Of a stretch of 64,000 nucleotides of DNA, positions 57,238 to 63,457 are shown piece after piece; the stretch's first letter is position 1, and every line of letters starts with the position of its first letter. Made by a program: the position numbers and the translations under genes. This DNA comes from Candidatus Koribacter versatilis Ellin345 (GTDB taxonomy: Bacteria; Acidobacteriota; Terriglobia; Terriglobales; Acidobacteriaceae). The notes beneath the pieces are model-generated. The model did not search any database and was not told where the DNA came from. It saw nothing but the letters and a program-made list of their open reading frames with translations. The stretch lies in assembly GCF_000014005.1 (NCBI RefSeq), contig NC_008009.1, positions 1 to 64,000 on the forward strand, read 5' to 3'.

Positions 57238-58062
57238 CTAGAACCCTCTTTTAGCCGCTATAGAAATCAAGTCTTTCCAAACTAAGACGCGGTCACGCTG
57301 CACGCTTTTCTTGATTCTCGCGGGGAGCTTCACTTCGGCGGTGACAAAGTGAACGGTCGGATCGGCAAGGTAAAGAAGCTGATGGTAATCGAGCCAATCG
57401 GAATCGCGTTCATCAAAGTTATAGTTTCGCGCTTTCGCAAGGTCGTATAGCGCACTGCTGTACCAAAATGCTGCATCAGTAGCATTCAAAATACGCGTTA
57501 CGTTCTCCGGGGTTGCGGGAACCTCTATGAGGTTTAAGAGTGACGTCGACCATATTTCTTGGTTCGAGCGTTTTGAAACGCCGTCTCGTAGTTCTTCTAG
57601 GCTTTTGACGTGCTGCGCTTTACCACGGTCGACTTGGGAGACCACTTCGTCAAGTTTGATGCCATAGGCTCTAGTTCCCAACCCTACCCCTTCTCTTTCT
57701 AATTGCCATCTGTCTCGAGCGCCGACAATGACACGTGCCCATATGCGTAGGTGCTCTGGGTCGAAATGATGGATTCTTCCTGGCAAGCCAAAAGCGTGAA
57801 CCCGCACAAAATCGCCTGCGAGCCCGAGATATCTGCGAGCGCCTAGCGAAAATAGAACCTTAAGCCGTTTTTGATTGTGCGAGAAATAGTCGTTGGAGCC
57901 GAGTGCGAGCCCGACCAACAGCTCGTACAAGGTATGTAACGAGATGTAGTAACGGTATTCGCACTGCAAGTAGCGCGTTACGTGATCCCATTCGCGCTTC
58001 GAGATATTTCCGGTCGCGGCGTATTCGAGAATCTGTGTATCCAAGAACACTTTTTTCTTCAT
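57238..58062 (-). CDS. PIN-domain-like protein
   Basis: A 274-residue protein with an N-terminus VFLDTQILEYAATG (acidic Asp8), Glu47 in HTLYELLVG, Asp196 in NATDAAFWYSSALYDLAK and a final VHFVTAEVKL (Thr241, Glu243). These occur in the order of the PIN nuclease acidic quartet, so it may be an RNase. It has a long central insertion compared with small toxin PINs, and its base composition is lower in GC than its neighbours, suggesting transfer. No antitoxin-like ORF is next to it. It begins nine bases after the stop of the DnaC-like gene, so the two are probably cotranscribed. The PIN reading is inference from motif spacing. Confidence 0.55.
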   Translation of the reverse strand: MKKKVFLDTQILEYAATGNISKREWDHVTRYLQCEYRYYISLHTLYELLVGLALGSNDYFSHNQKRLKVLFSLGARRYLGLAGDFVRVHAFGLPGRIHHFDPEHLRIWARVIVGARDRWQLEREGVGLGTRAYGIKLDEVVSQVDRGKAQHVKSLEELRDGVSKRSNQEIWSTSLLNLIEVPATPENVTRILNATDAAFWYSSALYDLAKARNYNFDERDSDWLDYHQLLYLADPTVHFVTAEVKLPARIKKSVQRDRVLVWKDLISIAAKRGF

Positions 58063-58071
58063 GGAGAGCCG

Positions 58072-58854
58072 TTACCGCCAGCTAGCACTCTTCCACTTGA
58101 TCCGAAAGTCCTCACCCTGCACGGTGACGATGCGGCACATTTCATGCAGTCGCGAGCGCATGCGTTCCCCAATGCGATCGCCGAGGGTCTCTTCGCGAGC
58201 GGCGCGTTCCGCGGCACCGTAGGTTCTTCGTGGCGGCTCATCGCCATTCGCGGCCCCGCCGGGCGGCAGGTCGCGATAATTCGTCGTGATGATCGTCGTC
58301 CTTCGGTCGTTGTAACGCGTGTTCAGAATGTGGCTTACCGTGTCCCATACCCACTCGGTCGGCTTCACCGCGCCGAGTTCGTCGAGCACCAGCACTTCAG
58401 CTTCAAATACCGGCCGCAAGACATCGAGCTCGGTGACGGCGACCGAGTTGTTGTAGGAGTTCTGGATTTCCTTTAGCAGCTCGCGATAGTCGTAGAACAG
58501 GCAGGGCACGCCCTTCGCCATCATCAGCTCGCGAATGATGCCAACCGCCAAGTGCGTCTTGCCCACGCCGATCGTTCCAATCAGCAGCAGCCCGGCGCGC
58601 TCCACCGGATACTTCTCCACAAACTGCGACGCCGCCAGGTGCGCCGGCGAGAGCGTCTGGAACGGCCCATCGTGCTCAAAATTGGAGAGCTCGCAATGCT
58701 TGTAGCGATCTGGAATGTAGGCATGCTGCAGCAGGCGGTCATTGCGCAGCCGCTGCTGGCAATCACAGCGCACCGCGCGCGGCCCTTTTTCGTCCGCCAC
58801 AGTTTTCCACCCCGTGTCGCGGCAAACCTCGCACTTCACTGTCGTCTCTATCAT
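58072..58854 (-). CDS. DnaC/DnaI-like AAA+ ATPase (helicase loader type)
   Basis: The 260-residue protein has an N-terminal zinc-finger-like region (Cys8, Cys11, Cys30, Cys32) as in DnaI, then an AAA+ domain: Walker A GTIGVGKTHLA at 93-103, Walker B VLVLDELGAV near 152-161, TIITTN near 188 (sensor 1) and DRIGERMRSRLHEMC near 225 (sensor 2 region). A loop after 200 (GGAANGDEPPRRTYG) is unusual. It probably loads a replicative helicase or is part of a transferred element. It is cotranscribed with the PIN-like gene. Confidence 0.85.
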   Translation of the reverse strand: MIETTVKCEVCRDTGWKTVADEKGPRAVRCDCQQRLRNDRLLQHAYIPDRYKHCELSNFEHDGPFQTLSPAHLAASQFVEKYPVERAGLLLIGTIGVGKTHLAVGIIRELMMAKGVPCLFYDYRELLKEIQNSYNNSVAVTELDVLRPVFEAEVLVLDELGAVKPTEWVWDTVSHILNTRYNDRRTTIITTNYRDLPPGGAANGDEPPRRTYGAAERAAREETLGDRIGERMRSRLHEMCRIVTVQGEDFRIKWKSASWR

Positions 58855-58883: not shown

Positions 58884-58942
58884 CCTGTCATCCTGAGCGG
58901 AGAATCCGCATAACGATGCGGATTCGGAGTTGAAGGACCCCT
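58884..58942 (+). repeat. Dispersed repeat, CTGTCATCCTGAG type with an internal hairpin
   Basis: Starts CCTGTCATCCTGAGCGG and ends TGAAGGACCCCT. Between them AATCCGCAT and ATGCGGATT form an inverted pair. The gap 58855-59075 holds no gene apart from this element. Confidence 0.55.
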
Positions 58943-59075
58943 ATCCTCACTCAAATGCTTATCGTATTACTTTCGTCCCGAACCGAGCGCGACGCAACCG
59001 CAACCCGCCTCCGGCCTGTGTACAACGCATGTTCTCTGTGGACGCCTGAGGAAAACGTGCCCAGAATAGATCTCC

Positions 59076-59360
59076 ATGCAATCCGCCGTGAATCCGGAAC
59101 TTCCCGTGGCGGGCGCGCTTTGGAGCGGCGTGGCCGCGTTCTTTGCATTTCTCGGTACGGCCGGAGCATGCATCGCGATCGTTCTCATCGTGTCCGTAGG
59201 CCTTGGGCGAGACGAAGGCGGAGTTTGGCTGCCTATGCGCTATGCCGCCATTTGGGTGCCGATCACCGCTCTTGTTGCGGTAAGTGTCGCGGTCGTGACG
59301 TTCCGGCGCGTTGCACGGCGATTCACACACGTAGCCGCCGAGATTTTTGATCGACAGTGA
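59076..59360 (+). CDS. Small two-TM membrane protein, unknown
   Basis: A 94-residue protein with two hydrophobic segments (about 12-38 and 54-74) separated by a Gly/Asp loop; its basic C-terminus (FRRVARRFTHVAAEI) is cytoplasmic by the positive-inside rule. No family recognised. It lies 41 bases upstream of tilS on the same strand. Confidence 0.55.
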   Translation: MQSAVNPELPVAGALWSGVAAFFAFLGTAGACIAIVLIVSVGLGRDEGGVWLPMRYAAIWVPITALVAVSVAVVTFRRVARRFTHVAAEIFDRQ

Positions 59361-59401
59361 ATCGGTTCCAAAGTTAAATCGCTCGGTTGTACCATCTCCC
59401 C

Positions 59402-60796
59402 ATGCTGCCGTCCCTCAAGAGCTATATCCGCACGCACGCCCTCTTCCGCCCGGGCGATCGCGTCGGTGTAGCCGTCTCCGGCGGGGCTGACAGCGTTGCG
59501 CTTTTACGTGGCCTTCTGGAACTCCGGTCTGAGCTCGGCATTGCGCTCAGTGTTGTCCATCTCCACCACGGAATTCGCGGCGCCGAAGCCGATGCCGACG
59601 AACAATTCGTCGCCGATCTCGCCGGACAATTCGATCTCTCACTGCACCTTGAACGCGTCGACGTCCCGTCGCACAGTTCGCAGGAAAAGCTCAGTCTTGA
59701 AACCGCCGCCCGCGACCTGCGCTACGCTTTCTTCCGCCGGCTGCTCGAATCGAGTGCCTGCGACAAGGTCGCCACCGCGCACACTCTCGATGACCAGGCC
59801 GAAACCGTTCTCCTCCGGATTCTGCGCGGTACCGGGACCCGCGGCCTCGCAGCGATTCCGCCGTTCCGCGACGCCTCACCCGAACTCGCCGCTTGCATCG
59901 TTCGTCCACTCCTCGGAACCGAGCGCACCGAGGTCGAAACGTATCTGAAATCTCTAAACCAACCCTGGCGCGAAGACTCCACCAACACTGACCCCAAGCA
60001 CCTGCGCAACCGCATCCGACATGAACTCCTCCCAATGTTAGAGGCGGAATACAATCCCGCGCTTCGCCAGTCTCTGGCTAATCTAGCCGAGATTGCTCGA
60101 GCCGAAGAGGAATACTGGGGTCCTATTGTCGAACGACACTTCGATCAGATCGTGACCATGACGAACTTCGGCGCCGTGCTCGACAGGTCCAGGCTGTCGG
60201 AACTGCCGCAAGCGTTCCGCCGACGCGTCTTGCTCGCTCTCCACGACCGCTTGGATATGCCTGTGAGCTTTGACGGAGTGGATTTCGAGCTCGACTTCAT
60301 TGAAGGCAATCAGAAGGGCCACATCACCCACGCGCAAGCGAGCATTCAAGTTACGTCCGACCAAGTCAGTTTCTTCCTCCGCGACCTCACCAAAGATGGG
60401 CCAGCTGCCCCTGTCCTTTTCGACCAGCCTCTCTCCATCCCCACGACCCTCACCCTCCCTACCTCGACCACTCTCCGCACCACATTCATCCCCGCCTCCA
60501 ACGCCCCGCGCTATAATCCCCACAATCTGTTGGCTCACGACCGCCTTCAGCTTCCGTTGCGCGTGCGCAACTGGCAGCCTGGCGATCGTTACTGGCCGGC
60601 CGGCAGCAAGCAACCGGAGAAGCTCAAGCGCCTCTTCGCCGAGCACCACATCTCAGCCGACGCCCGCCTTACTTGGCCCGTCGTGCTCAGCGGCGAAACC
60701 ATCGTTTGGGTCAAAGATTTTCCGGTCGCCCAAGGATTCCAGGCGGAACAGCAGGACGCCGTCTTAATCGAAGCTGTCGAAACGAGGCAGGTGTGA
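59402..60796 (+). CDS. tilS: tRNA(Ile)-lysidine synthase
   Basis: TilS changes C34 of tRNA-Ile(CAU) to lysidine so it reads AUA. The PP-loop motif is SGGADS at 26-31 with VVHLHHGIRGAEADADE next and ATAHTLDDQAETVLLR downstream. The C-terminal TilS-C domain (RVRNWQPGDRYWPAGSKQPEKLKRLFAEHHI) is present. The start is ATG 59402; a TTG at 59387 adds five residues. Length is 464. The stop overlaps the hpt-like start (GTGA). Confidence 0.95.
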   Translation: MLPSLKSYIRTHALFRPGDRVGVAVSGGADSVALLRGLLELRSELGIALSVVHLHHGIRGAEADADEQFVADLAGQFDLSLHLERVDVPSHSSQEKLSLETAARDLRYAFFRRLLESSACDKVATAHTLDDQAETVLLRILRGTGTRGLAAIPPFRDASPELAACIVRPLLGTERTEVETYLKSLNQPWREDSTNTDPKHLRNRIRHELLPMLEAEYNPALRQSLANLAEIARAEEEYWGPIVERHFDQIVTMTNFGAVLDRSRLSELPQAFRRRVLLALHDRLDMPVSFDGVDFELDFIEGNQKGHITHAQASIQVTSDQVSFFLRDLTKDGPAAPVLFDQPLSIPTTLTLPTSTTLRTTFIPASNAPRYNPHNLLAHDRLQLPLRVRNWQPGDRYWPAGSKQPEKLKRLFAEHHISADARLTWPVVLSGETIVWVKDFPVAQGFQAEQQDAVLIEAVETRQV

Positions 60797-61347
60797 GCAG
60801 AGAAGAGGGACTTCCCGCGAACCTGAAGGCGATCGTTACCGCCGAGCAGATCCAGCACCGCGTCGTCGAGCTCGGCCGCCAGATCACCGCCGACTATGCG
60901 GGCAAACGCATCGTCATCATCGGCGTCCTCGAAAACGCCTTCGTCTTCATGGCCGACCTCATCCGCCATATTGAGCTGCCCACCGTCTGCCAGTTCGTTC
61001 TTTCCGATATTCACGACGTCGAGGAGGGCTTGGCGCCCGCTCGTGAAATCTTCTTCTTTCCAGAGGTCGAAGTCTCCGGCGAGCATGTCCTCCTGATCGA
61101 AGGCCTGGTGCAGTCCGGCCTCACCACCGACTTCCTCGTCACCAACCTGATGGGCCGCGGCGCTGCCTCCATCAAGACCGCTTCGCTTCTCAACCGCCAG
61201 AGCTCCCGCAAGGTTTCCGTCCAGCTCGATTACTTCGGTTTTGACATCGACGACCCCTACGTCGTGGGCTATGGACTGGGTGCACCTCATTTAGGCAGGA
61301 ATTTGCCTTATGTTGCGGCTACCAAACCGCCCGAACCCGGTGTCTAA
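60793..61347 (+). CDS. HPRT-family protein with altered PRPP-binding motif
   Basis: The family is clear from the C-terminus (QLDYFGFDIDDPYVVGYGLG, then RNLPYVA) and the central IVIIGVLENAFVFMADL. In place of the PRPP motif (usually VEDIIDTGLT) the protein has IEGLVQSGLTT at 102-112. The second acidic residue is Gly104 and the catalytic Asp is Gln107. The pyrophosphate loop (normally SSYG) is also not recognisable. So it may not catalyse IMP/GMP formation and could be a regulatory or divergent enzyme. The GTG start overlaps the tilS stop (GTGA). tilS-hpt-ftsH is a conserved order. Length is 184. Confidence 0.8.
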   Translation: MSREEGLPANLKAIVTAEQIQHRVVELGRQITADYAGKRIVIIGVLENAFVFMADLIRHIELPTVCQFVLSDIHDVEEGLAPAREIFFFPEVEVSGEHVLLIEGLVQSGLTTDFLVTNLMGRGAASIKTASLLNRQSSRKVSVQLDYFGFDIDDPYVVGYGLGAPHLGRNLPYVAATKPPEPGV

Positions 61348-61543
61348 ACACTCGTAATCCCGAGACTTTTCCCGATTCGGGTGGAAGTTCAGCAGTACAA
61401 TAGCTTGGGGCGACATTCCTTAAATCCAACTCGGCTGCGGGACATCTAAGTTTCAGCGGCGTTGGGTTTACCCGGTTCGCCGTCCGCCGTCGTGTGCGCC
61501 AAGCTGGAAACCGCGCGCCGACGGCACTAGAGGAGCAACATTC

Positions 61544-63457
<1,914 letters not shown>

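Follow-up and report, generated by a model that had tools for sequence, protein, structure and literature searches.

The window analysed here, a 64,000-nt stretch of the genome of Candidatus Koribacter versatilis Ellin345, carries a frame for a 184-amino-acid protein related to hypoxanthine phosphoribosyltransferase (HPRT), lying between tilS and ftsH (Table 1). Its GTG start codon and the tilS stop codon share a 4-nt overlap (GTGA, 60793-60796). Homology to HPRT is certain and extends over the whole domain: Pribosyltran is the single Pfam domain (54.2 bits), the NCBIfam HPRT model TIGR01203 matches with an E value of 2.7e-37 and 128.1 bits, below its 150-bit equivalog cut-off, and the closest solved structures are bacterial HPRTs, with E values down to 3e-34. 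An AlphaFold model predicted from 3 sequences (mean pLDDT 71.5; 46-53 for the remaining four models) has HPRT structures as its best matches and only confirms the HPRT fold.

Table 1. Features in and around the tilS-ftsH interval of the window. Site numbers in brackets (K68, G69, S103, Y104, E133, D134, D137, T138, G139, T141, K165, D193, R199) follow what we take to be the human HPRT numbering; other residue numbers are those of the 184-aa protein.
Feature	Position	Strand	Basis
274-aa frame, possibly a PIN-like protein	57238..58062	-	by eye
260-aa frame resembling a DnaC/IstB-type ATPase, zinc-ribbon-like start; adjoins the 274-aa frame	58072..58854	-	by eye
tilS (tRNA-Ile lysidine synthetase); first start codon of the open frame used, 59402 may be the true start	59387..60796	+	ATP_bind_3 and TilS_C domains
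HPRT-family protein, very probably a pseudoenzyme; GTG start at 60793, stop at 61347, 184 aa	60793..61347	+	frame, family profile, structure matches
E47-N48 in place of the pyrophosphate-loop Lys/Arg-Gly (K68-G69)	60931..60936	+	alignment; K/R or G in 0/84 class-linked copies
I73-H74 in place of Ser-Tyr of the SSYG loop (S103-Y104); segment length unchanged, motif gone	61009..61014	+	alignment
PRPP motif remnant IEGLVQSGLT: D134 to G104, D137 to Q107; 5'-phosphate loop S108-G109-x-T111 retained	61096..61125	+	alignment, site counts
R135 at the position of the purine-recognising Lys165	61195..61197	+	K/R in 83/84 class-linked copies
G163 in place of the Mg2+ Asp193 (GYGLD)	61279..61281	+	Asp in 2/84 class-linked copies
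R169, retained equivalent of Arg199	61297..61299	+	73/84 class-linked copies
TAnAAT box	61396..61401		by eye
CATCTAA element	61442..61449		
ftsH (AAA protease)	61544..63457	+	AAA and M41 parts found

Residues E103, G104, Q107, S108, G109 and T111 of the 184-aa protein occupy the positions of the HPRT motif E-D-x-x-D-T/S-G-x-T, the equivalent of E133 being retained as E103. An initial annotation of this DNA had placed an HPRT homolog between tilS and ftsH with a start overlapping tilS, and had read the PRPP motif as IEGLVQSGLTT, with Gln107 for the catalytic Asp and Gly104 for the second acidic residue; coordinates, frame and residues all agree with what is found here. It had also described the SSYG loop as missing, which holds for the motif and not for the segment, since this keeps its full length as S-D-I-H-D, without any deletion. 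Two further losses were absent from that account, namely Glu47-Asn48 in the pyrophosphate loop and the replacement of the C-terminal Mg2+ Asp by Gly163. As neither Mg-PRPP nor pyrophosphate could be held in the usual way, catalysis is very unlikely.

The organism's own 5.65-Mb, one-contig genome has a second HPRT locus. This one, at C1:3633746-3634264(-), encodes an intact HPRT in which VEDILDTG, SSYG, LKGA and GYGMD are all present, and its neighbours resemble, by eye, deoC, a nucleoside transporter and a divergent adenosine deaminase. With this intact hpt in the genome, the degenerate copy is ruled out as a stand-in for an absent one.

Genomes were searched in three overlapping sets: 61 relatives, 200 of the class and 119 of the phylum. 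A separate scan of genome contigs yielded just 2 loci. A copy was called linked when tilS lay at most 400 nt upstream or ftsH at most 900 nt downstream. After near-identical sequences were merged (and L009 left out, as the same record as L012), 215 distinct sequences remained of 227: 84 linked copies from the class, 28 linked copies from other classes and 103 unlinked copies. In the class search all listed matches of at least 163.4 bits were read, with a few lower ones, giving a degenerate copy in at least 85 of 242 class genomes; in the phylum search all listed matches above 149.5 bits were read, with two at 148.7-149.0, and the 28 linked copies from other classes are a part of the total. By the distance rule 104 of the 112 linked copies have both tilS just upstream and ftsH just downstream, while 7 have only ftsH and 1 only tilS; three of these eight lie at or nearly at a contig end. 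In raw counts, 39 of 81 degenerate copies and 19 of 24 other linked copies have a candidate start codon that overlaps the end of tilS (-4 or -1, relative to its stop).

None of the 84 class-linked copies retains K/R68, G69, Y104 or D134; D137 is kept in 10 and D193 in 2, the catalytic Asp being lost in 74/84 and the C-terminal Mg2+ Asp in 82/84. In the same copies E/D133 is present in 75, T/S138 in 84, G139 in 84, T141 in 80, K/R165 in 83 and R199 in 73. A sequencing error or a single odd genome is ruled out by the main losses being common to 84/84. The 28 linked copies read from other classes have K/R68 in 26, D134 in 22, D137 in 28 and D193 in 27, with Y104 in only 4. Just 4 of the 103 unlinked copies are degenerate (L020, L134, L141 and L144, all placed with the linked branch of the tree), and the other 99 have G69, D134, D137 and D193 without exception and K/R68 in 94. 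Counted over five sites (68, 69, 134, 137 and 193), losses among the 112 linked copies are two-peaked: all five in 73 copies, four in 10, three in 3, two in 1, one in 4 and none in 21. Position 107 varies among the class-linked copies (Q, H, E, D, N and others), and other positions are newly fixed in the degenerate copies, among them F50 (96%), C66 (93%), P63 (91%) and E85 (81%). The base-stacking positions are retained in 24/24 and 22/24 copies of the window's own family, and in 32/59 and 33/59 of the other class members, where the alignment is uncertain; as they are variable outside the own family, retention of the purine pocket is not general.

A quick, unrooted tree of 117 rows, from which the motif columns had been removed, places all 58 sampled linked rows and the 4 degenerate unlinked rows on one side of a branch with an SH-aLRT of 99, and the remaining unlinked rows together with E. 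coli Hpt on the other. SSYG was probably lost first, since most linked copies of other classes already lack it; the remaining losses then fell within the window's class. In a sample mainly of genomes lacking the copy, tilS and ftsH are adjacent with no Hpt between them in 24 of the 27 genomes with a TilS match, the first recognised part of ftsH lying 53-370 nt past the tilS stop (ftsH is outside the view in G011, G033 and G022, and G008 has no TilS match). From this it follows that TilS and FtsH do not need the linked protein everywhere. Mapped on a TilS tree, presence and absence of the linked copy take about 6 changes, at least 3 of them forced by strong branches, and the scattered absence is most simply read as vertical descent in which the gene was cleanly lost several times.

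A separate HPRT accompanies the degenerate copy in 73 of its 85 class genomes; 25 of these HPRTs were read and 48 were assigned by profile score only (a hand count of genomes whose second place scores at least 177 bits). An intact HPRT was not found in the other 12, most of which are drafts that may hide copies. These include all four genomes of family f8 that carry the linked copy (G056, G064, G071 and G078); G071, which is 100% complete, has an extra 55.8-bit match with an internal stop, and G085, a fifth f8 genome, has one weak match only. Purine salvage may run differently in G056, G064, G071 and G078. The dead and the intact gene were never seen together in one fetched locus.

Over the closest 22 of 121 pairs (at least 72% identity), dN/dS in the degenerate copies is 0.03-0.18; the pairs are non-independent, several have dS near saturation, and the window's own pair, with one same-genus genome, is too distant to be among them. 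TilS at the same loci gives 0.10-0.28, exceeding the degenerate copy in 19 of the 21 pairs that could be compared; values for FtsH are mostly lower, and the unlinked HPRTs give 0.03-0.20 (22 of 43 pairs). The ranges being similar, the dead copy is held about as tightly as intact HPRTs. In 92 loci examined, the aligned cores are free of internal stops. With FtsH controlled for, the rates of the degenerate copy and of TilS have a partial correlation of 0.64, as against 0.36 for the intact HPRT in the same 21 genomes (0.47 over all 74 usable degenerate loci), a comparison confounded by common operon position. Of 1000 bootstraps, 962 give the degenerate copy the higher value, though the intervals (0.34-0.79 vs 0.03-0.63) overlap. 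The rates weakly fit a partnership with TilS.

We know of no accepted reason for the order tilS-hpt-ftsH. The order recurs in distant bacteria: two papers place tilS and hprT of B. subtilis immediately upstream of ftsH with a one-nucleotide overlap, a TilS-HprT complex being reported to activate ftsH (the review PMC8152036, on Lin et al. 2014), and hpt and tilS of S. mutans in the ftsH operon (PMC8112672). The Koribacter locus has the three genes, their order and the tilS-hpt overlap in common with the B. subtilis system, but HprT of B. subtilis is an active enzyme, whereas the linked copy is degenerate. Like Hpt/HprT (TIGR01203) at large, the linked protein has the fold, full-length homology, the position between tilS and ftsH, the 5'-phosphate loop and the C-terminal VGYGL..RNLP; unlike them, it is without the pyrophosphate-loop Lys-Gly, SSYG, the second PRPP acid, the catalytic Asp and the C-terminal Mg2+ Asp, and its score falls below the cut-off.

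PRTFDC1 is changed at Asp137 and loses the catalytic base only. Phosphoribosyltransferase paralogs without clear activity are already known elsewhere: the vertebrate PRTFDC1 (PMC3144895; PDB 2jbh, among the structure matches here), an HPRT paralog whose activity is in doubt and which accompanies an active HPRT, and in Trypanosoma brucei an APRT isoform without activity (PMC8836349), again one inactive member of a paralog pair. They differ from the linked protein, PRTFDC1 in being vertebrate and having no tie to tilS, the T. brucei protein in being an adenine enzyme of a eukaryote. No account of a tilS-linked HPRT pseudoenzyme was found in the literature searched, which missed most subscription papers and bioRxiv.

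The linked copy is very probably an HPRT pseudoenzyme throughout the class, non-catalytic and functional. The initial annotation had proposed a non-catalytic homolog, possibly regulatory; the first part is well supported by sequence, with D134 lost in 84/84 and D137 in 74/84 class-linked copies, and a regulatory role is plausible. It had also raised two points: as far as sequence shows, the same substitutions are not common in active HPRTs, D134 or D137 being lost in 0/99 non-degenerate unlinked copies, and the second, intact hpt it had asked about is the one at C1:3633746-3634264. A degenerate active site under selection beside tilS suggests a second, non-enzymatic job. As a whole, the explanation that we favour, at a strength somewhat short of probable, is a conserved HPRT pseudoenzyme that is most likely a partner of TilS. 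Taken by itself, the proposal that the linked protein is a non-catalytic TilS partner at the ftsH locus is a tentative one, drawn from the linkage, the possible translational coupling and the persistence of the copy where no intact HPRT was found. Counting against this proposal are the scattered absence of a gene that evolution can evidently dispense with, the lack of a tie between the protein and the CATCTAA element before ftsH, and the variable base-stacking positions.

An old split in the acidobacterial phylum gave one copy locked to tilS and ftsH and a separate copy keeping the active-site residues of a salvage enzyme, as tree, synteny and site counts show. In the window's class the linked copy afterwards lost the pyrophosphate loop and SSYG along with the second PRPP acid; the catalytic Asp went in most copies and the C-terminal Mg2+ Asp in nearly all. 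Largely retained are the 5'-phosphate loop, the basic character of position 165, Arg199 and the fold. IMP or GMP synthesis would, on strong grounds, not be expected of it, and salvage would fall to the separate hpt. The linked protein is presumably still made and, to go by dN/dS, selected in a non-catalytic capacity; as a translationally coupled partner it might bind TilS and adjust either TilS itself or downstream ftsH expression, in the manner reported for B. subtilis HprT, and what is left of its pocket may hold a 5'-phosphate ligand. We think it doubtful, though worth stating, that the role of hpt between tilS and ftsH across bacteria is an old structural or signalling one, exercised with TilS, and not purine salvage; in the Acidobacteriota salvage would have been left to the separate copy, and the linked protein would be a pure pseudoenzyme subunit of TilS, possibly reading a phosphorylated ligand.

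A sensor of nucleotides or alarmones, with a target other than TilS, is an unlikely alternative in which the pocket formed by the S/T-G-x-T loop, Lys/Arg135 and Arg169 would bind a purine nucleotide or ppGpp. The 5'-phosphate loop is indeed kept in 84, 84 and 80 of 84 copies at its three positions and R199 in 73/84, and the ppGpp contacts of HPRT given in PMC6783271 (Glu99, Asp100, backbone amides 103-107, Arg165, loop I and Mg2+) include loop III and loop I amides and an Arg. Against this, the linked protein is altered in loop I, at the Asp of the Glu-Asp pair and at the C-terminal Mg2+ Asp, its base-stacking residues are variable outside the own family, and the retained loop may be structural. 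With several ppGpp contacts gone from the sequence, alarmone binding is possible and probably weakened.

Pseudoenzyme paralogs act as regulatory subunits in other enzyme families, and the dead copy might likewise assemble with the intact HPRT into mixed dimers or tetramers, tuning it as a prozyme does. The separate HPRT in 73/85 genomes would allow this, as would the dimer or tetramer with an allosteric interface that PMC6783271 reports for HPRT. We consider it quite unlikely, and set it aside as the main reading, for the copy is kept in 12/85 class genomes with no intact HPRT found, including all four f8 carriers, one of them 100% complete (drafts may hide copies), and no fetched locus has both genes, the dead copy staying with tilS. 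Enzymatic activity of an unusual kind, using a different chemistry or acceptor for which the canonical residues are unneeded, is very unlikely: strong purifying selection and the catalytic Asp in 10/84 class copies would suit it, but the pyrophosphate-loop and PRPP ligands are changed together, and the alternation of Q, H, E, D, N and others at position 107 is unlike a new catalytic residue. A PyrR/PurR-type regulator was rejected, since the PyrR models score 12.9-16.8 bits against cut-offs of 140-218, there is one Pfam domain and the PRPP motif is lost. A decaying pseudogene on its way out, which the scattered absence might suggest, is exceedingly improbable, being ruled out by the dN/dS of 0.03-0.18 and opposed also by the 0 stops in the aligned cores of 92 loci and by the same sites having switched in many families.

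Before ftsH, loci of the own family have a TAnAAT box (by eye) and, tens of bases later, a CATCTAA element. Where the gene is present, CATCTAA occurs in 21/23 own-family loci, 10/60 other class loci and 1/28 linked loci of other groups; it occurs as well in 6/24 loci without the gene. Found without the gene and rare elsewhere with it, the element points to no operator tied to the linked protein, and the box and element were set aside as a TilS-HprT-type operator between the linked gene and ftsH. Inverted repeats within 61340-61560 are short, and nothing promoter-like turned up when 58900-61700 was scanned for sigma-70 sites (mean in shuffles 0.5). Several genomes without the linked copy have a CGTCTAA form before ftsH, in some of them after GGAACC (by eye), an arrangement that we take to resemble an ECF-sigma promoter.

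With the active site gone and both protein and place kept class-wide, the enzymatic and non-enzymatic roles become separable, and moonlighting becomes testable free of purine salvage. Automatic annotation, for its part, may give these genomes a second salvage enzyme that they lack.

The degenerate copies scored as unlinked lie in varied surroundings. L020 (G022), the only own-family degenerate copy read that was so scored, shares a contig with tilS at a distance of about 3 kb. L134 (G294), L141 (G284) and L144 (G303) come from other classes and belong to the linked branch; none of the three has tilS within 400 nt or ftsH in view, and the TilS match nearest to L144 lies some 470 nt upstream. 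Families f16 and f42, also of other classes, include 11 genomes whose sole HPRT match is the copy beside tilS (L152, L154, L204-L207, L209, L214, L222, L224 and L225). The f16 and f42 linked copies have the PRPP motif intact and the SSYG motif absent and, from their sequences, are possibly active HPRTs without the usual flexible loop.
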